Counted from the first letter of the stretch, positions 6,991-35,033 are shown. The stretch is 35,033 nt of DNA from a virus (IMGVR_UViG_3300046413_001110:1-35033), one strand, 5' to 3'. The notes: generated by a model not told the origin, from the sequence alone. Numbers and translations are program-made.

Positions 6991-7123
6991 AATAAAAAAA
7001 TTACAAAATTTATTTTCATGGAAACAATTTTATCAATGGAATGAAGATTTTGAAAATATAGAAATTACTCAAGATCAGATTGATCTTTTACAAATTGAAA
7101 TAGATGGAAATAAAAGAAATTAA
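6974..7123 (+). CDS. Small hypothetical protein, 49 residues
   Basis: This frame runs from ATG 6974 to TAA 7121-7123. It begins basic (MKKENKIKKLQNLFSWKQFY) and continues acidic (NEDFENIEITQDQIDLLQIE). It overlaps the preceding gene by 17 bases and the ParB-like gene by 20 bases. I recognise no domain. The acidic helix may be a protein-binding peptide. Confidence 0.55.
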   Translation: MKKENKIKKLQNLFSWKQFYQWNEDFENIEITQDQIDLLQIEIDGNKRN

Positions 7124-7685
7124 AATATCAGAAATTAAGGAATCTGAATATAATCCAAGAAAAATTTCTCCAGAAGATAAAAAACAATTAAAAAATTCTC
7201 TTTTAAAATTCGGAATAGTAGATCCAATAATATTAAATAAAAATCCAAAAAGAAAAAATATATTAATCGGAGGTCATCAAAGATTAAAAATTTGGAAAGA
7301 ATTAAAAAATAAAACTATTCCAGCAACATTTGTAAATCTAGATATTGATCAAGAAAAGGAATTGAACATAAGATTAAATAAAAATTCTGGTGAATTTGAT
7401 TTTGAATTATTAGAAAAGCATTTTGAAACTGAATTATTAGTAGATTTTGGATTTTCGCCTTTTCAATTTTCAGATGTCACTTTTATTGATGATCTTGATT
7501 CTATCAAAATTGAGCATGAAAATAATTCTTTAAAACATAAAGATGAAGCTGTAATGCTAGAAATTCCTATGTCCCCAGAACAAAAAAAAGAAATAATGCT
7601 AACAATTAATTCATATAAAAAAAATAGAGATATTTCTAATGGAGTTGCTTTATATGAAATTACTTGTATAAATAATGTTTTATAA
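7104..7685 (+). CDS. ParB/sulfiredoxin-fold protein, possible DpdB-like partner of DpdA
   Basis: This is a 193-residue protein. Its N-terminal ~95 residues form a ParB/Srx domain: EIKISEIKESEYNPRKIS with YNPR at 16-19, the family pattern IVDPIILNK, and GGHQRLK with GGHQR at 56-60 (the G-G-H-Q-R nucleotide-binding motif of ParB-type enzymes). The C-terminal half is acidic and not recognisable. The stop TAA shares its last base with the ATG of the DpdA-like gene (TAATG), so the two are tightly coupled. In bacterial Dpd islands, DpdB is also a ParB-superfamily protein required with DpdA for preQ0 insertion. The same role here is an inference; a ParB-type nuclease or segregation protein is the alternative. 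Confidence 0.75.
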   Translation: MEIKEIKISEIKESEYNPRKISPEDKKQLKNSLLKFGIVDPIILNKNPKRKNILIGGHQRLKIWKELKNKTIPATFVNLDIDQEKELNIRLNKNSGEFDFELLEKHFETELLVDFGFSPFQFSDVTFIDDLDSIKIEHENNSLKHKDEAVMLEIPMSPEQKKEIMLTINSYKKNRDISNGVALYEITCINNVL

Positions 7686-8605
7686 TGATTTGCGAAAAGC
7701 AAAAAAATTTAAAAGTTCATTTTGCTGGAGCAGAATCTTTAGTAAGATCTGAATTATTTACAAATTGTGTTAATGCTAATTATACTCTTTTTACAATTTT
7801 TCCTTTTATTTGTTATGAATTTGGTATTCCTCATGGTTTTTTTAATGCTAATAAAGATGGATATAAAAACGTAAGTAAATCAAATTATATAAATTCAAAA
7901 CACTCAATTCAAGATTCTGGAATTTTTAGTTTGGTTCATGGCTCTTATAAAGGAGATAAATCAAAAAATTTTATTGACAAATATTATAATAAATTAATTG
8001 AATTAACATTAAATAATGAATTTAAAGGAACAGTTGTAGAACTTGATTGCCAAAAATTATTAGGTATAAAAGAAACTTGGAATTTTAGAAAAAAAATAAG
8101 AAAAGATTTACCAAACAATAGAATAATGAATGTTTTTCATTTTGAAGATGGAACTAAAGGACTTGATGAAATGATAGAATTTTCAGATTATATTGCTTTA
8201 TCTATTCCAGAATTTAGATTTTTAGGTTTAAAAAATAAAGCTTACAATATATCAAATTACATAAAAAATAAAAAACCAGATATTGATATACATTTATTAG
8301 GATGCACAGATAATCAAATGATAAAAGATTTAAATTTTTGCACATCATCAGATTCTACTTCATGGCTATCTTTAAACAGATTTGGACATTTTAAATATAA
8401 TGATAAAACTAAAACACATACTATCAAAAAATCCAATATCAATCGAGAAAAACTTTTAAAAAAATATAAAAATGAAATAAATTATTTATGGAATAAAGTT
8501 GATTTAAAAGATAATGAAAATCTAAAATTTTATTATTCATGTGATATGCTTCAAATTTCTTATTTATTAAAACAATACACTTACTATGCTGGGGAACAAA
8601 CATAA
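7685..8605 (+). CDS. dpdA: DpdA-like DNA 7-deazaguanine transglycosylase
   Basis: This 306-residue protein is related to tRNA-guanine transglycosylase (TIM-barrel). DpdA enzymes exchange guanine in DNA for a 7-deazaguanine such as preQ0. DSGIFSL at residues 77-83 corresponds to the substrate-binding D-S-G-x-F motif of the TGT family. VELD at 118-121, HLLGCTD at 203-209 and SSDSTSW at 221-227 follow in order; Asp223 is the candidate nucleophile. The Cys zinc site (C-x-C-x2-C) of bacterial TGT is absent, as expected for phage DpdA. It overlaps queC by 20 bases. With queC, queD, queE and folE downstream, the assignment is strong even though DpdA families diverge widely. Confidence 0.85.
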   Translation: MICEKQKNLKVHFAGAESLVRSELFTNCVNANYTLFTIFPFICYEFGIPHGFFNANKDGYKNVSKSNYINSKHSIQDSGIFSLVHGSYKGDKSKNFIDKYYNKLIELTLNNEFKGTVVELDCQKLLGIKETWNFRKKIRKDLPNNRIMNVFHFEDGTKGLDEMIEFSDYIALSIPEFRFLGLKNKAYNISNYIKNKKPDIDIHLLGCTDNQMIKDLNFCTSSDSTSWLSLNRFGHFKYNDKTKTHTIKKSNINREKLLKKYKNEINYLWNKVDLKDNENLKFYYSCDMLQISYLLKQYTYYAGEQT

Positions 8606-9272
8606 AAACGAAAAATGCTTAATTTTATTTTCTGGAGGACAAGATTCTACGACTTGTTTATATTGGGCAAAAAAATATTTTAAAGAAGTGACTGCAATTG
8701 GTTTTGATTATGGTCAAACTCATAAAAAAGAACTTGATCAAGCTTATAAAATAGCTAATAAATTAAATGTAAAATATAAAATATTTAATATTAGCAATAT
8801 AATGACAAAATCAAGCTTAACTAGAAATCACAATCATAATGAAAAAAGTCATATTAATAAAGATTTACCAGCAAGTTTTACAACTGGAAGAAATATAATT
8901 TTTTTATCAATTGCTGGAGGTTATGCAGCAGAAAATAAAATTAATAATATAGTAACTGGAGTTTGTCAGACTGACTATTCTGGTTATCCAGATTGCAGAA
9001 AAACTTCAATAGATGCAATGCAAAATGTATTATCACTTGCTTATGGATCTGGTGATTTTTTAATTCACACTCCTTTAATGTATTTAAATAAAGCAGAAAC
9101 TTTTAAATTAGCAAATGAATTAAATTGTTTAGATATTATTATAAATGAAACTTTGACAGATTACAATGGAGACATGACAAAAAATGATTGGGGTTTTGGT
9201 AAAGCAGATAATCCAGCTTCTATATTAAGAATGAAAGGTTTTAAAGAAGCAAAAAAAAATAAATGGATATGA
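8586..9272 (+). CDS. queC: QueC-like 7-cyano-7-deazaguanine (preQ0) synthase
   Basis: This 228-residue protein would convert 7-carboxy-7-deazaguanine to preQ0 using ATP and ammonia. The PP-loop SGGQDST is at residues 16-22. FDYGQTHKKEL (40-50), TGRN (100-103) and GVCQTDYSGYPDCR (125-138) match QueC. The C-terminal region ETLTDYNGDM (188-197) aligns with the usual E-T-L-T-C-Y-N-G, but Asp192 replaces the first cysteine. The following NDWGFGKADNPAS lacks the usual C-G-x-C-x-x-C, so all four zinc cysteines are missing. The enzyme may have an altered zinc site or belong to a zinc-free subgroup. It overlaps the DpdA-like gene and the next microprotein gene (ATGA). Confidence 0.85.
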   Translation: MLGNKHKNEKCLILFSGGQDSTTCLYWAKKYFKEVTAIGFDYGQTHKKELDQAYKIANKLNVKYKIFNISNIMTKSSLTRNHNHNEKSHINKDLPASFTTGRNIIFLSIAGGYAAENKINNIVTGVCQTDYSGYPDCRKTSIDAMQNVLSLAYGSGDFLIHTPLMYLNKAETFKLANELNCLDIIINETLTDYNGDMTKNDWGFGKADNPASILRMKGFKEAKKNKWI

Positions 9273-9403
9273 AAGAATTTATATATCATGCTTTAGGAAT
9301 TTGTGGAGAACATTCTCATCCGAATTTAATTAATATTACATTTATTATTTTAAGTTTAATTTTAGTAGGATCTATAATTTTTAAATTAAAAAATCAAAAA
9401 TGA
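9269..9403 (+). CDS. Membrane microprotein between queC and queD, 44 residues
   Basis: ATG 9269 overlaps the queC stop (ATGA) and the stop overlaps the queD ATG at 9400 (ATGA). This double 4-base overlap is strong evidence for a real gene. The N-terminal half (FIYHALGICGEHSHPN) has one Cys and three His; the second half is one membrane helix (INITFIILSLILVGSIIF) and a basic tail (KLKNQK). The helix would place the histidine segment outside under the positive-inside rule. Its presence in a cytoplasmic modification operon is unexplained. Confidence 0.65.
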   Translation: MKEFIYHALGICGEHSHPNLINITFIILSLILVGSIIFKLKNQK

Positions 9404-9804
9404 TAATTGAAAAAAAATATTATTTCTACGCTGGACATAGAAATAAAACTGCTGGGGAAAAATGTTCTAGACTTCATGGACATACTTATGATGTAATCGT
9501 AAAGTTTAAATTTGATAAAATGAAAGATGGAGTAACAATGCTTTTTTCTGATATTGATAAACTTGTAGAACCTATTATTAAAAGTTACGATCATTATTTA
9601 TTACTTCATGATACAGATCCTTTATGTCCATTATTAGAAATTAATGATGAGCCATTTATAAAATTACCATTTGAAACATCTGCTGAAAATATGGCTATTT
9701 GGCTTTTTAATCAAATCAAAAACGAAACAAAATTAAATATAATTGAAATTCAATTTTCAGAAACTAAATCATCAAAAATAATATATAATGGAATTAAAAA
9801 TTAG
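9400..9804 (+). CDS. queD: QueD, 6-carboxytetrahydropterin synthase
   Basis: This 134-residue protein would convert dihydroneopterin triphosphate to 6-carboxytetrahydropterin, the second step from GTP to preQ0. Zinc ligands are His13 (AGHR), His26 and His28 (RLHGHTY). The catalytic cysteine is Cys22 (EKCSRLHGH). Asp64-His65 (YDHYLLLH) and Glu121 (FSETKSS) complete the expected catalytic set. FETSAENMAIWLF (91-103) matches the P-T-x-E-N-L-A family signature. All key residues are present and length is typical. The start overlaps the preceding microprotein stop by 4 bases and the end overlaps queE by 17 bases. Confidence 0.92.
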   Translation: MIIEKKYYFYAGHRNKTAGEKCSRLHGHTYDVIVKFKFDKMKDGVTMLFSDIDKLVEPIIKSYDHYLLLHDTDPLCPLLEINDEPFIKLPFETSAENMAIWLFNQIKNETKLNIIEIQFSETKSSKIIYNGIKN

Positions 9805-10387
9805 TGAACTTTTTTATTCTTTACAAGGCGAAGGTGCTAGATGTGGTGTTCCAACTTTTTTTATAAGAACATCTGGATGCAAAACTAAAAATGCTTGTTA
9901 TAAAATGGGTATTAAATGCGATACAGATTTCGAGGGAGGAGAAAATAAATCAGTAGAAGATTTATTAAAATGGATGAAAGAAACAAATGAAGAATGTAAA
10001 GAAATAACATGGACTGGAGGCGAACCAGCAGATCAATTAAATGAAGAAATTATTCAATTTTTTAAAGATCGTGGATATTATCAAGCAATTGAAACAAGTG
10101 GATTATTTAAAGTTCCAGATAATTTAGATTTTATTTGTGTTTCTCCTAAAGTTGCTGAGCATGTTATTAAAAGAAATTTTGATCATGTTAATGAATTAAG
10201 ATATGTAAGACATAAAGGTCAATTTGTTCCAGAACCATCAATAAGTGCTGATCATTATTGGATCTCACCTCATTCTGATGGATTTAATATTAATAAAGAA
10301 AATTTGAATCATTGTATAAATATATGTTTAGAAAATCCTAAATGGAAACTAAGTGTGCAAAATCATAAATTATGGAATATCCTTTAA
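9788..10387 (+). CDS. queE: QueE, 7-carboxy-7-deazaguanine synthase (radical SAM)
   Basis: This 199-residue radical SAM enzyme would form 7-carboxy-7-deazaguanine from 6-carboxytetrahydropterin. FYSLQGEGARCGVPTFFIR (9-27) is the QueE substrate signature and TGGEP at 76-80 the SAM-binding motif. The iron-sulfur cysteines read SGC31-x5-C37-x6-C44-DT, spaced unlike the usual C-x3-C-x2-C; phage and some bacterial QueE proteins have such an expanded loop. The final KLSVQNHKLWNIL matches the conserved end of QueE (L-S-V-Q-x-H-K). It overlaps folE by 16 bases. Confidence 0.9.
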   Translation: MELKISELFYSLQGEGARCGVPTFFIRTSGCKTKNACYKMGIKCDTDFEGGENKSVEDLLKWMKETNEECKEITWTGGEPADQLNEEIIQFFKDRGYYQAIETSGLFKVPDNLDFICVSPKVAEHVIKRNFDHVNELRYVRHKGQFVPEPSISADHYWISPHSDGFNINKENLNHCINICLENPKWKLSVQNHKLWNIL

Positions 10388-10917
10388 ATTCTCCAGAATA
10401 TCATTTTAAAGAATTATTAAAACAATTAGGGGAAGATCCAGATCGTGAAGGATTGGAAGAAACTCCTAAAAGATATATTAAATTCTACAAAGAATTTCTT
10501 TCTCCACCAGAATTTAATTTTACAACTTTTAGTTCTGAAGGATATGATGAAATGATTATTCAATCTAATATTCCTTTTTATTCTTTATGTGAACATCATA
10601 TTGCTCCATTTACTGGAACTGGAACAATTGCTTATATACCAAATGAGAAAATAGTTGGACTTTCAAAACTAGCTAGAACTTTAGAAACATTTTCAAGAAG
10701 ATTACAAAATCAAGAAAGAATTACAAATCAAGTTGCTGAATTGATTCAAGAAAAACTAAATCCAAAAGGGGTAGCAGTTATATTAAAAGCAAAACATTTA
10801 TGTATGGAAATGAGAGGCGTAAAAAAGCATGATACTTATACTACCACATCAAAAATGATAGGAGCATTTAAAGATGATCCAAAAGCAAGAAATGAAGTTT
10901 TAAATTTAATTTCATAA
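10372..10917 (+). CDS. folE: FolE, GTP cyclohydrolase I
   Basis: This 181-residue protein would convert GTP to dihydroneopterin triphosphate, the entry step to preQ0. GEDPDREGLEETPKR (20-34) is the family's N-terminal signature. SLCEHHIAPF (71-80) and HLCMEMRGVKK (142-152) supply the zinc ligands Cys73, His76 and Cys144. GLSKLAR (96-102) and RRLQNQERIT (109-118) are the second conserved block. All active-site residues are present and length is normal. Placed last in the cassette, it would push host GTP toward the modified base. A 12-base gap separates it from the terminase genes. Confidence 0.95.
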   Translation: MEYPLNSPEYHFKELLKQLGEDPDREGLEETPKRYIKFYKEFLSPPEFNFTTFSSEGYDEMIIQSNIPFYSLCEHHIAPFTGTGTIAYIPNEKIVGLSKLARTLETFSRRLQNQERITNQVAELIQEKLNPKGVAVILKAKHLCMEMRGVKKHDTYTTTSKMIGAFKDDPKARNEVLNLIS

Positions 10918-20210: not shown

Positions 20211-20739
20211 TAAAAAAAAAACTATTAATTATCAATTTTATGAAACTTTGGAAGAACTTCCATTATGGAATTGGATTAAAATTTATCAAGAAAAGGATTT
20301 TACCTATATTTTAAAAGATGTAGATTATCGTATATTTGTAATAGATACTGAAATTATCAAATTAATAGAACCTATTTGGAAAAATATTTATGATGAGTAT
20401 TTAAATGATTTTGGATTTACAAAAAAATATAAAAGAGTTTTAGAGCTGGAAAGAAAAATTAGTTTATTGAAATGCAAAATGTGGATAGATGATAATAAAT
20501 TTATCCAAAACGAAATTAGAATAAAAGAGAAACAATTATTAAAAGAAAAAAATAATAATAGTATTGATGAAAATGGAAATGATTTTACAAAGCAAGTTGT
20601 TTTAATTGAAAAGTGGCTAAATTCTAGTTTAGATATTTATAATCTTTCTACTAGAAAATATTTTACTTATCTTAATATAATAAATGATGAAGCTGAAAAT
20701 ATAAAAATGAAACAAGCAAAAGAAAATGTCAAAAATTAA
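20188..20739 (+). CDS. Hypothetical protein in the tail assembly chaperone position
   Basis: This is a 183-residue protein rich in Lys, Asn, Trp and Ile. It has a helical domain (ETLEELPLWNWIKIYQEKD near the start) and a long basic coiled coil (YKRVLELERKISLLKCKMWI onward). It lies directly before the tape measure gene, where phages encode tail assembly chaperones, and overlaps that gene by 14 bases. I see no obvious slippery-site fusion to the tape measure gene. Function by position only. Confidence 0.6.
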   Translation: MFWNKFFNKKKTINYQFYETLEELPLWNWIKIYQEKDFTYILKDVDYRIFVIDTEIIKLIEPIWKNIYDEYLNDFGFTKKYKRVLELERKISLLKCKMWIDDNKFIQNEIRIKEKQLLKEKNNNSIDENGNDFTKQVVLIEKWLNSSLDIYNLSTRKYFTYLNIINDEAENIKMKQAKENVKN

Positions 20740-23700
20740 AAAAGAAGATATATTTGATTCAAATTTATTTAAAGGAACTACTGAAGAAATAAAAACAATG
20801 ATCGAAGTGGTCAAGACATTAAAAACTGAAATGATCAGTTTGCTTAAAGTTTCACAACAAGCATTGAAATCAAAACCAACAAATTCTGATGGAATAAGAA
20901 AACAAGCTGAAGAAACTCAAAAAGTATCACAAGCTGAAAAAAACTTGATTATATTAGAAAAAGAAAGAGTAAAATTAGTTAATAAATTAAATCAAGCATC
21001 TGAAAAACAAGCAAAAAACAATGCTAGAACTAAAGTAAGAATTCAAGAAAGAAACAAAGCTTTAAAACAACAAGCAAGGGAAGAATTAAAACTTGTAGGA
21101 GCTTATGAAAAACAATCAAGAACTTTAAATTCTTTGAGGAAACAATATAAAGACTTATTAGTTCAAGGAAAAGGAAACACAAAGCAAGCCAGATTATTAG
21201 CAAAAGAAGTTCAAAATTTAGATAAAAAATTAAAATCTGTTGATGCTGCTGCTGGTCAATATCAAAGAAATGTAGGAAACTATGGCAATAAATTAAGATC
21301 TGGATTTCAATCTTTAATGGGAGCAGTAGGTGTAACTGCTGGAATTACTGGAATAGTTAGAGGTTTAAGAGGTGCTATTTCTGTTGTAGTTGATTTTGAT
21401 CAAGCTATCGCAAATCTTGGAGCAATCAGTCAAGCAACAGATTCCGAAATGATAGCTTTGGAAGAAAATGCTAGAAAATTAGGAGGATCTACTGCGTTCA
21501 CCGCTACTCAAGTTGCTAGTCTTTCAACTGAATTAGCAAAATTAGGATTTAAGCCAGATGAAATTATTGCTAGTTCTGAAGCAATTCTTCAATTAGCACA
21601 AGCAACTGGCTCAGAGCTTCCGAGATCTGCCGAAATCGCTGGATCAACTTTAAGAGCTTTTGGACTTGAAGCAAATGAAATGGAAAGAGTAGCTTCAGTT
21701 CTTGGAGTTGCAACTACTAAGTCAGCTTTAAACATGGAATTTTTTGGAACTGCTATGTCAAAAGTAGCTCCAGTTTCTGCTAAATTGGGTTTTAGTTTAG
21801 AAGATACAACTGCCTTATTAGGAACATTAGCAAATGCTGGATTTGATGCTTCAACGGCTGCTACATCAACAAAAAATATATTATTAAAATTAGCAGATTC
21901 TGGAGGAGAACTAGCAAAAGCATTAGGCGAACCAGTAAGAAATGTAGAAGATTTTATTCCAGCTTTAAGTAAATTACAAGCAGAGCTTGGAGAAGATGGT
22001 CTTGCTAGAGCTTTAGAATTAACTGATCAAAGATCAGTAGCAGCGTTTGCTACATTTTTAGAAGGAACTGAAACTATAAATGAATTAAAAACTGGTGTAA
22101 CTGATGTAGCAGATGAATTGAAAAAAATGTCTGAAGATCAACTGGACACAGTTAATGGTCAATTTCAATTATTAAAATCAAGATTACAAGAACTTATTCT
22201 TGGAACATCTTCAACAACTGGAGCAGTAGACAAATTAAAAAATGCTTTAGCTTTTGTTACTGCTAATCTAGAAAACATTTTTAGAATAATTAAATATGTA
22301 GCAATCGCATTTATATCATATAAAACTGCTGTGATTGCTTCAAATGTAGCAATGACTTCTTACCAAATGATCACAAAAGGTGCTAGAGTTATTACTTCTT
22401 TATTTTCTAAAGGTTTAAAAGGAGCTGCTATAAGCATGAAGGGTTTAAATACTGCTATAAAATCTAATCCATTAGGTCTTTTAATTTCAGCTTTAACAAC
22501 TGCAATCGCTTTATTTTGGGATTATTCAGATTCTGTGGAACAAGCAAGTATTGACAATCAAAAATTTGCTGATTCATTTAAACTTTTAAAAGATAGTTTG
22601 TCAGATGATTTAAGTGGAATTGAATCTGAAACAAAAGCAAAAATTCAATCTATTCAATTAGAATTAGCAAAGCTTCAACAAACTGGTACAGATGAAGAAA
22701 TTCTAGGAAAACAAGCTGAACTAGATGCTGCTCAATTAGAGGGATTAGAGCAACAAATTGAAGCAGTAACTTCTAAAATAAATGAACAAAGAGAAGCAAT
22801 TAAAAGTGTTGCTAGAGAAAGTTTAATGGATGCTTTTCAAGAAAATGATGACATTCGTGAAATGGGGTATGGATCTTCAGATTGGAGATCTGTTCAAAAA
22901 ATAATAGATGAAAATGTTTCTAAAATGGAAGAGGGGAAACAGCTAGAAATTGAACTGTCCAAGATGTTAGTTTTTGTTCAAAAAAAATATAATGAAGATG
23001 GAATAAAAGCAAAAGCAGATTTGATGCAACAAGCTTTGGAGCAAGGTAATGTAGAGGTCGGAAATTTAAAAACTTTATTAGATCAACTCAAAGCAATACA
23101 ACAACAAAAGAAAGATTTAAAATTTAATACAGAATTAAGGAAAACAAATGGCAAAGAAGAAAAATCAAATTTAAGAACAGTAGAAGTAATTAACAAAGAA
23201 ATTGCTGAGCAGCAAAGATTATTAAAAGAAACTGCTACTACTAGAGCTGAAGCAAAAGTTTTCCAAAATAATATTAAAAAACTTGAAAAAGAAAGATTAG
23301 GAATCTTAGGATCAACAAACAGAAAGACTGTAATTAGAAATAAATATGAAGATGATTTAAACAAAATTTTATCTGATAGAGAAAAATTAACTAGAAAAAT
23401 TGAAAAAAATACAAGAGGTTATTTAATAGGTCAAGCAGAAAGAGATCAAGAAACAACATTTAACAGAGGTTTAAAAATTGCTGAAGATGAAACTAAAGTA
23501 GATATTGATAAGGATGGTGTTATTGATAAAAGTTTTTATGATGATAAAATTTTTAATGATATTGAAGAAAGTTTTCAAGCATTGTTTTATGCTGAAAGAG
23601 AAGGATTGAAAGAGAATAGAAATTATTCATATACACAAGCTGAAAAAAGAAATTCAGATAATAAAAAGCTATATGCAAAGCAGTTAAAAGATCGACAATT

Positions 23701-24730
23701 AACACAAAATCAGTATGATGATTTAATTAAACAATCTGAAAAAAATCTTAAAAAAGATCGAGAAGAAATTTTACAAACCTATAATTATGCAGTTGAAGAA
23801 TCTGAACAAAAAAGAGTAGATGATACAAAAAGAGCAAATGAAGATATAATTAAAGCTGCTCAAGTAACTGCTGATTCACAATTAAAAATAACTCAAGCAA
23901 ATGAAGAAGCAAGATTAAAAAGTTTATCTGACACAATAGCTGCTACAAATGCTCTTTTAGATTATTTTCAAAGACAAAATGATCTAAGAGCTGAAAGACA
24001 ATTACAAAATATTAATGAAGAAATTTCAGCATCTAAAAATAGATATAATGAATTAAAACAATTATCAATTAATGGAAACGCAGATGCTGAAAAATCTGCT
24101 TTATCTGAAGAAAGGAGACAACAAGAATTGGAATTGAAGAAAAGAAAAGTTCAAAGAAATCAGCAATTATTTAATGCTGGAATCGCTGCATTTAAAGTTT
24201 TTGCTTCTAAAGTTGAAAGTGGAGATAAATCTCCTTTAACATCTACAATAAAAGATATTACTGCTCTTACTGCTTTTATTCAAAGTTTACCAGCTTTTTA
24301 TGGAGGTACAGAAAATGTTGGTGACAGTTTAGGAAAACCTTTGATGTCTGGCAGAGATGGTCATGTAGTTAGAGTTGATTCATCTGAAAGAATTGTAGAT
24401 CCTAGCAATAATGCTAAACTAGATGGAATTTCAAATGATGAACTTGGTAATTTAGCTTTAGATTATAAATCAAAATCAATTGAAGGAATAAAATATAATA
24501 AAGTTCCAACATCAAATTATGAAATGATTGCTAATAATATTTCTGTAAATTATCAACTTAATAAAAAACTTGATGAAATATCTAGATCAAATAATAAAAT
24601 AATTTCTGCTATCGAGCATATTCCTTTCGAGTCTTGGAATTATGATGAAATGAGTAATGCAGTTATACAAAAAATAAAAAACCAAAAGAAAACAGAAATA
24701 AAACATTATAAAAACAATAATATTTTTTAA
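20726..24730 (+). CDS. Tape measure protein (TP901 family)
   Basis: This 1334-residue protein sets tail length. Residues ~50-190 are a coiled coil. About residues 215-470 form the TP901-type core, including FDQAIANLGAISQATDSEMI, then GSTAFTATQVASLSTELAKL, then VATTKSALNMEFFGTAMSKV. Hydrophobic segments near 517-545 (IIKYVAIAFISYKTAVIASN) and 584-598 (GLLISALTTAIALFW) are typical of tape measure membrane-insertion regions. Long Lys/Glu/Gln coiled coils fill the rest. A partial calcium-loop-like DIDKDGVID near residue 926 lacks the usual acidic residue at loop position 12. At the usual ~1.5 angstrom per residue the tail would be about 200 nm; that is an estimate. Confidence 0.92.
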   Translation: MSKIKKEDIFDSNLFKGTTEEIKTMIEVVKTLKTEMISLLKVSQQALKSKPTNSDGIRKQAEETQKVSQAEKNLIILEKERVKLVNKLNQASEKQAKNNARTKVRIQERNKALKQQAREELKLVGAYEKQSRTLNSLRKQYKDLLVQGKGNTKQARLLAKEVQNLDKKLKSVDAAAGQYQRNVGNYGNKLRSGFQSLMGAVGVTAGITGIVRGLRGAISVVVDFDQAIANLGAISQATDSEMIALEENARKLGGSTAFTATQVASLSTELAKLGFKPDEIIASSEAILQLAQATGSELPRSAEIAGSTLRAFGLEANEMERVASVLGVATTKSALNMEFFGTAMSKVAPVSAKLGFSLEDTTALLGTLANAGFDASTAATSTKNILLKLADSGGELAKALGEPVRNVEDFIPALSKLQAELGEDGLARALELTDQRSVAAFATFLEGTETINELKTGVTDVADELKKMSEDQLDTVNGQFQLLKSRLQELILGTSSTTGAVDKLKNALAFVTANLENIFRIIKYVAIAFISYKTAVIASNVAMTSYQMITKGARVITSLFSKGLKGAAISMKGLNTAIKSNPLGLLISALTTAIALFWDYSDSVEQASIDNQKFADSFKLLKDSLSDDLSGIESETKAKIQSIQLELAKLQQTGTDEEILGKQAELDAAQLEGLEQQIEAVTSKINEQREAIKSVARESLMDAFQENDDIREMGYGSSDWRSVQKIIDENVSKMEEGKQLEIELSKMLVFVQKKYNEDGIKAKADLMQQALEQGNVEVGNLKTLLDQLKAIQQQKKDLKFNTELRKTNGKEEKSNLRTVEVINKEIAEQQRLLKETATTRAEAKVFQNNIKKLEKERLGILGSTNRKTVIRNKYEDDLNKILSDREKLTRKIEKNTRGYLIGQAERDQETTFNRGLKIAEDETKVDIDKDGVIDKSFYDDKIFNDIEESFQALFYAEREGLKENRNYSYTQAEKRNSDNKKLYAKQLKDRQLTQNQYDDLIKQSEKNLKKDREEILQTYNYAVEESEQKRVDDTKRANEDIIKAAQVTADSQLKITQANEEARLKSLSDTIAATNALLDYFQRQNDLRAERQLQNINEEISASKNRYNELKQLSINGNADAEKSALSEERRQQELELKKRKVQRNQQLFNAGIAAFKVFASKVESGDKSPLTSTIKDITALTAFIQSLPAFYGGTENVGDSLGKPLMSGRDGHVVRVDSSERIVDPSNNAKLDGISNDELGNLALDYKSKSIEGIKYNKVPTSNYEMIANNISVNYQLNKKLDEISRSNNKIISAIEHIPFESWNYDEMSNAVIQKIKNQKKTEIKHYKNNNIF

Positions 24731-34796: not shown

Positions 34797-35033
34797 ATGG
34801 AAACTTTTAAAACATCACAAATACAAAAAATTAAAAAATCAAATTTTTCAGATTTATTAAATATTGATGCAATTGAAAAATCTTTAAATTCTCAACTTCC
34901 AGAATTTAATTTTGAATATGAAGCAGATTATTTTAGTGAGAATATTGAATTATATAACGATCCTAAAGAAGATTATTTATTAATAATAGATTATGATATA
35001 AAAAATAATTTAATTTATCATGATGGTGATTAT
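34797..35033 (+). CDS. 5' part of the acidic hypothetical protein split by the window ends
   Basis: ATG 34797 opens a frame that runs off the window end and continues in phase at base 1 through the repeat. The first 32 codons (beginning METFKTSQIQKIKKSNFSDL) are unique; from 34893 the bases match 1-141 except 35019. It is the first gene of the early operon behind promoter copy 3. See the entry at 1-294 for the rest of the protein. Confidence 0.75.
   Translation, partial: METFKTSQIQKIKKSNFSDLLNIDAIEKSLNSQLPEFNFEYEADYFSENIELYNDPKEDYLLIIDYDIKNNLIYHDGDY
34893..35033. repeat. Terminal direct repeat, right copy
   Basis: It matches bases 1-141 with a single difference at 35019 (C against G at 127). 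In the shared gene this changes Asp to His. One mismatch in 141 suggests either a population variant or an assembly artefact at the join. Confidence 0.9.

Follow-up and report, generated by a model that had tools for sequence, protein, structure and literature searches.

A ParB-linked 7-deazaguanine cassette predicted to place deoxy-preQ0 in the DNA of a phage probably infecting Bacteroidota

DNA disguises in phages, including dPreQ0 systems, are already known. The closest described examples are the systems of phages CAjan and Rosebush, the second group of Hutinet et al. 2019 (PMC6884629), which contain FolE, QueD, QueE, QueC and DpdA and no amidotransferase. That these five enzymes give dPreQ0 is an experimentally supported rule, with dPreQ0 found in both phages (PMC6884629). 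The locus presented here has the same enzyme set and the same predicted product, deoxy-preQ0. It differs from the CAjan and Rosebush systems in that its DpdA belongs to another branch, with similarity at the profile level only, its QueC is zinc-free, its QueE has a CX5CX6C cysteine spacing, and a ParB partner and a membrane microprotein are encoded with the enzymes in one block of overlapping genes. The stretch of CAjan that was examined has no annotated ParB gene. ParB-DpdA cassettes of the DpX type, such as those of Faecalibacterium phage Roos and loci L016-L022, share the ParB-DpdA core, and their DpdA is up to 62% identical to that of the present locus. The complete cassettes of this type also share QueD, QueE and FolE, whereas Roos contains a Vut_1 transporter instead. 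These cassettes contain DpX, a protein with a QueD fold but no catalytic cysteine, and no QueC; the present locus contains QueC and no DpX. This very widespread ParB-linked form with its two types is little described. What is new is mainly that ParB is linked to DpdA from locus to locus and that QueC and DpX are exchanged for each other; like the zinc-free lineage of QueC, this goes beyond the initial annotation of the locus.

The window, i.e. the whole stretch that was analysed, comprises 35,033 nt of viral DNA from a metagenomic contig (IMGVR_UViG_3300046413_001110:1-35033). Its ends form a 141-bp direct repeat (positions 1-141 and 34893-35033) with a single mismatch, so that the record probably represents a complete genome of ~34.9 kb that is circularly closed. 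Since the nearest relatives of its large terminase are found in phages of Bacteroidota, the host probably belongs to this phylum. Seven overlapping ORFs on the + strand, all with ATG starts, occupy positions 7104-10917 (Table 1); neighbours overlap by 1, 20, 10, 4, 17 and 16 bases in gene order, and genes for the small and large terminase lie downstream. This layout, with its coordinates, start codons and overlaps of 1-20 bases, confirms the initial annotation, and the family matches are far above chance. The absence of QueF, QueA and a glutamine amidotransferase, also part of that annotation, was borne out by Pfam/PHROGs scans of nearly all ORFs of at least 80 aa (outside the scan were 521-775, a 1334-aa ORF at 20726-24730 and most very short ORFs). 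As the genome is probably complete, the absence of QueF and an amidotransferase is probably real. Outside the cassette, a small methyltransferase-like ORF at 4755-5264 matches DOT1 (PF08123) just above the cut-off.

Table 1. Features of the cassette, with coordinates in the window and supporting matches.
Feature	Coordinates	Strand	Evidence
ParB_N (ParB/Srx-fold) protein, 193 aa	7104..7685	+	PF02195 E=1.2e-10, above cut-off
DpdA-type DNA-guanine transglycosylase (predicted), 306 aa	7685..8605	+	phrog_887, hhalign to CAjan DpdA, AF2 model
QueC, 7-cyano-7-deazaguanine synthase, 228 aa	8586..9272	+	PF06508 E=1e-60; TIGR00364 above cut-off
Membrane microprotein, 46 aa	9263..9403	+	14 homologues
QueD, 6-carboxytetrahydropterin synthase, 134 aa	9400..9804	+	PF01242 E=1.7e-24
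QueE, 7-carboxy-7-deazaguanine synthase, 199 aa	9788..10387	+	TIGR04508 E=9e-35, below cut-off; 4njg E=4e-22
FolE, GTP cyclohydrolase I, 181 aa	10372..10917	+	PF01227 E=4e-67; TIGR00063 above cut-off

For the DpdA-like ORF, Pfam and NCBIfam gave no significant match and in particular no TGT model. It matches phrog_887 'queuine tRNA-ribosyltransferase' with E=4e-15, and hhalign of a profile built from 48 relatives to the DpdA of phage CAjan gave a probability of 96.8 (E=2e-10). Asp77 (D77, in DSG) and Asp223 (D223, in SDSTSW) align with LDSGAF and CDSSSW of CAjan and are invariant in 51 relatives. They are candidate catalytic aspartates, for which we assume the roles of their counterparts in the TGT family. 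A fold search was needed, because PDB sequence searches with the DpdA or DpX profiles returned nothing useful. The AlphaFold2 model, calculated from alignments without rows from phage records, has a pLDDT of 94.4 and a pTM of 0.91 and forms a TIM barrel. In the PDB, TGT (5lps) ranked second with E=2.6e-4 and a TM-score of 0.48 among generic TIM barrels; this match alone is weak, because other barrels score alike. Among the viral models of BFVD, phage queuine transglycosylases were matched with E=1e-7 to 5e-5, and every functionally named entry among the top 25 was a queuine or queuosine tRNA-ribosyltransferase. The initial annotation had based its DpdA assignment on motif order. The assignment is upheld by the phrog_887 match, the CAjan profile match with both aspartates aligned and the AlphaFold2 model, and 5lps, BFVD and the CAjan alignment agree on a fold that is TGT-like. 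These results support a predicted DpdA-type transglycosylase with a TGT-like TIM barrel at 7685-8605.

Such a protein could also work on tRNA, with the phage raising preQ0 and queuosine in the tRNA of its host. All four biosynthesis genes are used for tRNA queuosine as well, and some relatives contain a queuosine-precursor transporter. We regard this reading as very improbable, since phage DpdA, and no TGT model of Pfam/NCBIfam, is what the transglycosylase matches, the scanned ORFs contain no QueA, the pairing with the ParB_N protein is constant, and 9g DpdA did not replace TGT (PMC6884629).

For a comparison of the cassette with its relatives, ~170 loci were gathered by searches with DpdA and with QueC. 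The ParB_N gene adjoins DpdA, or DpX-DpdA, in 143 of 149 testable loci, with overlapping genes in 110, and loci with an inverted gene order (L059, L173-L178) keep this adjacency. Gly57 (G57) and Arg60 (R60) of the ParB box are conserved. Fusions of ParB and DpdA do not occur among the collected loci, and none of the papers searched dealt with DpX or with a link between ParB and DpdA. ParBc proteins without an assigned role occur next to CmoX base modifiers of phages as well (PMC12783734), and work cited in PMC10853773 includes ParB/Srx proteins that are nucleases or NTPases. Most likely, the ParB-like protein is a DNA-targeting or DNA-binding, or else NTP-using, partner of DpdA. If it were instead a nuclease, as those cited cases would allow, ParB and DpdA might form a modification-based weapon that spares modified phage DNA and cuts unmodified DNA of the host or of rivals. 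The tie of ParB to DpdA in nearly all loci would fit such a pair as well. We consider a weapon of this kind very unlikely, as ParBc is also a neighbour of other base-modifying enzymes of phages, and DNA binding is an equally likely role for it there (PMC12783734).

QueC was identified by TIGR00364 (205 bits vs a cut-off of 150) and keeps the P-loop SGGQDS at residues 16-21, but all four C-terminal zinc cysteines are replaced (TDYNG..GFGKADNPAS). The substitute motif is common to ~80 viral relatives, whereas CAjan and others retain the cysteines. Zinc-free QueC is also encoded on the chromosome in Bacteroidota genomes (L185-L195), i.e. the lineage is shared by cells and phages. In eight Bacteroidota genomes it is the only full-length QueC; QueD and QueE lie beside it in seven, QueF lies within ~1 kb in all eight, and all of them contain QueA and TGT. 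Because these genomes with QueF, QueA and TGT have no other full-length QueC, the zinc-free lineage should, by the logic of the pathway, make preQ0. For the same reason the idea that zinc-free QueC is a new enzyme was ruled out. Since the lineage is presumably active, the zinc site was not counted as essential for QueC membership.

The remaining biosynthesis enzymes were compared with their families in the same way. QueD (PTPS) keeps the motif residues H13, C22, H26 and H28 and matches TIGR03367 with E=3e-19, below the NCBIfam cut-off. FolE reaches 211 bits for TIGR00063 (cut-off 182) and keeps the zinc motif CEHH (in SLCEHH) and the distal Cys in KAKHLC. QueE matches a solved QueE structure (4njg), and its three cysteines, ending at a CDT motif, are spaced CX5CX6C, not CX3CX2C or CX14CX2C. 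The earlier statement that all key residues of FolE, QueD and QueE are visible is therefore correct for FolE and for the QueD motif and only loosely so for QueE. Within the window and its relatives, the QueE spacing is CX3CX18C in 72, CX5CX6C in 64 and CX3CX2C in 25. CX3CX6C also occurs in the set (L016-L180), and CX20CX3C-like spacings occur in Bacteroidota chromosomes (L185-L195). As far as sequence comparison goes, zinc-free QueC and CX5CX6C QueE are conserved variants. In several cassettes of the DpX type (L003 3297-4118, L004 2399-3241 and others), FolE has an N-terminal extension that weakly matches phosphoribosyl transferases (phrog_8995). The full route from GTP to preQ0 and the DNA-inserting transglycosylase, as initially proposed, have support from profile matches, the predicted structure, the conservation of active-site residues and the ~170 homologous cassettes.

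The membrane microprotein contains a GxCGExxHxN-type motif (G-x-C-x-E/H..H-x-N in relatives) followed by one hydrophobic helix. It had been listed as a gene from the outset, and homologues in 14 other loci (L052, L065, L072-L074, L076, L085, L112, L127, L128, L130, L131, L148, L176) show that it is real. Nearly all homologues lie between QueE and FolE, whereas that of the window lies between QueC and QueD. A comparison with cultured phages gave no match.

The ParB-linked cassette comes in two forms that exclude each other, one with QueC and one with DpX. Among 175 DpdA loci, QueC without DpX is present in 87, DpX without QueC in 78, neither in 10 (mostly cuts at contig ends) and both in none. 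Because DpdA or QueC served as the query when the loci were gathered, counts per query are fairer: the DpdA query gave 62 complete DpX and four complete QueC cassettes with no overlap, and DpX is found in 0 of 79 loci from the QueC query. In cultured phages, DpX occurs in five whole genomes, all without QueC, and QueC in three phage records, all without DpX. Cultured relatives with the DpX form include Faecalibacterium phage Roos and Cellulophaga phage phiST; a DpX profile matched none of the ORFs of the window. A phylogenetic sign test gave opposite states in four of four independent pairs, too few for significance (p=0.125). The two genes do not replace each other in the same slot, since DpX precedes DpdA and QueC mostly follows it. 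Queuosine-precursor-type (Vut_1-like) transporters are encoded in 26 of 78 DpX and 8 of 87 QueC cassettes (L006, L007, L019, L022-L025 and others; p=2e-4 without phylogenetic correction). DUF6884 proteins adjoin DpdA or QueC in two cassettes (L007 6670-7104 and L168 6645-7067).

DpX is a relative of QueD (hhalign 94%), and its AlphaFold2 model (pLDDT 96.8) has E. coli QueD as the best PDB match (TM-score 0.70). It keeps the histidines H15, H31 and H33, which we take to be the zinc ligands of QueD, and has an invariant leucine at the position of the catalytic cysteine. Because of this leucine, DpX should do something other than the QueD reaction. Cui et al. 2023 reportedly described additional 7-deazaguanine enzymes of phages, among them a predicted carboxy-deazaguanine decarboxylase, DpdL, along with subfamilies of DpdA. 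Since DpX stands in for QueC downstream of QueE, it could be DpdL; the window itself is without this candidate.

The DpdA of the window shows 57-62% identity to the nearest DpX-associated DpdA and is far from most QueC-associated ones. In the DpdA tree it lies inside the DpX-type clade, most members of which are without QueC. Within this clade QueC arises about three times (window/L167, L084 and L081/L092/L098), with several long branches whose exact placement is unsure. Because a DpdA of the DpX-type clade sits with QueC, the cassette of the window is a natural swap. Exclusivity and repeated exchange suggest that the base supplied to DpdA is set by QueC in one form and by DpX in the other. 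Several residues conserved in DpX-type DpdA, for example M84 and L80, both close after D77, and C122, differ in some members with QueC; these differences may reflect base preference, a suggestive reading confounded by the long branches. Tentatively, and with somewhat more doubt than conviction, we propose a ParB-coupled 7-deazaguanine system that is separate from the phage DpdA systems described so far and has two interchangeable forms. In this system, an exchange between QueC (preQ0) and DpX (QueD fold, acting on carboxy-deazaguanine) would switch the base used by DpdA, ParB would pick the target sites, and the window would represent a DpX-type DpdA fed by QueC.

What the computation supports is the set of genes, their folds and active-site residues, the tie of ParB to DpdA and the mutual exclusion of QueC and DpX. 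The enzyme activities, exact base, choice of sites, role of ParB and protection, which we infer, would combine as follows. FolE, QueD, QueE and QueC would convert GTP to preQ0 (7-cyano-7-deazaguanine). After replication DpdA, as a TIM-barrel base-exchange enzyme, would remove guanine from chosen sites in the DNA and insert preQ0 there, with the ParB-like protein as its DNA-targeting or NTP-using helper. The resulting deoxy-preQ0 in phage DNA would block host restriction enzymes. It is quite probable that the cassette makes preQ0 and inserts it into the phage's own DNA, giving such a restriction-blocking base. All five enzymes of the dPreQ0 group are present, with no amidotransferase or QueF in the scanned ORFs, and deoxy-preQ0, in agreement with the five-enzyme rule, is the best prediction for the DNA of this phage.

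Host enzymes or the preference of DpdA might instead lead to another 7-deazaguanine in the DNA (dPreQ1, dADG, dG+ or carboxy-deazaguanine). The base preference could differ from that of QueC-type systems, because the clade to which the DpdA of the window belongs normally works with DpX and not with QueC, and the variation at M84, L80 and C122 would fit this. Should the host possess QueF, preQ0 could be channelled to preQ1, and for Campylobacter phages there is a report of dADG in a group that lacks the enzymes expected (PMC6884629). Nevertheless, a different base appears rather unlikely: the cassette acquired QueC as it lost DpX, the scanned ORFs of the probably complete genome contain no tailoring gene, the five-enzyme set gives dPreQ0 in the two tested phages, and the DpdA residue differences are confounded by the longer branches.

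The restriction and defence systems that a phage can evade depend on its DNA disguise. If the proposed reading of the cassette is true, a cassette for DNA modification that is very common among uncultured phages has scarcely been described so far. ParB would nearly always accompany the inserting enzyme, and phages would swap the enzyme that sets the base, which would permit direct tests of how DpdA picks base and sites. It would also suggest that the zinc of QueC and the standard cysteine spacing of QueE are dispensable.
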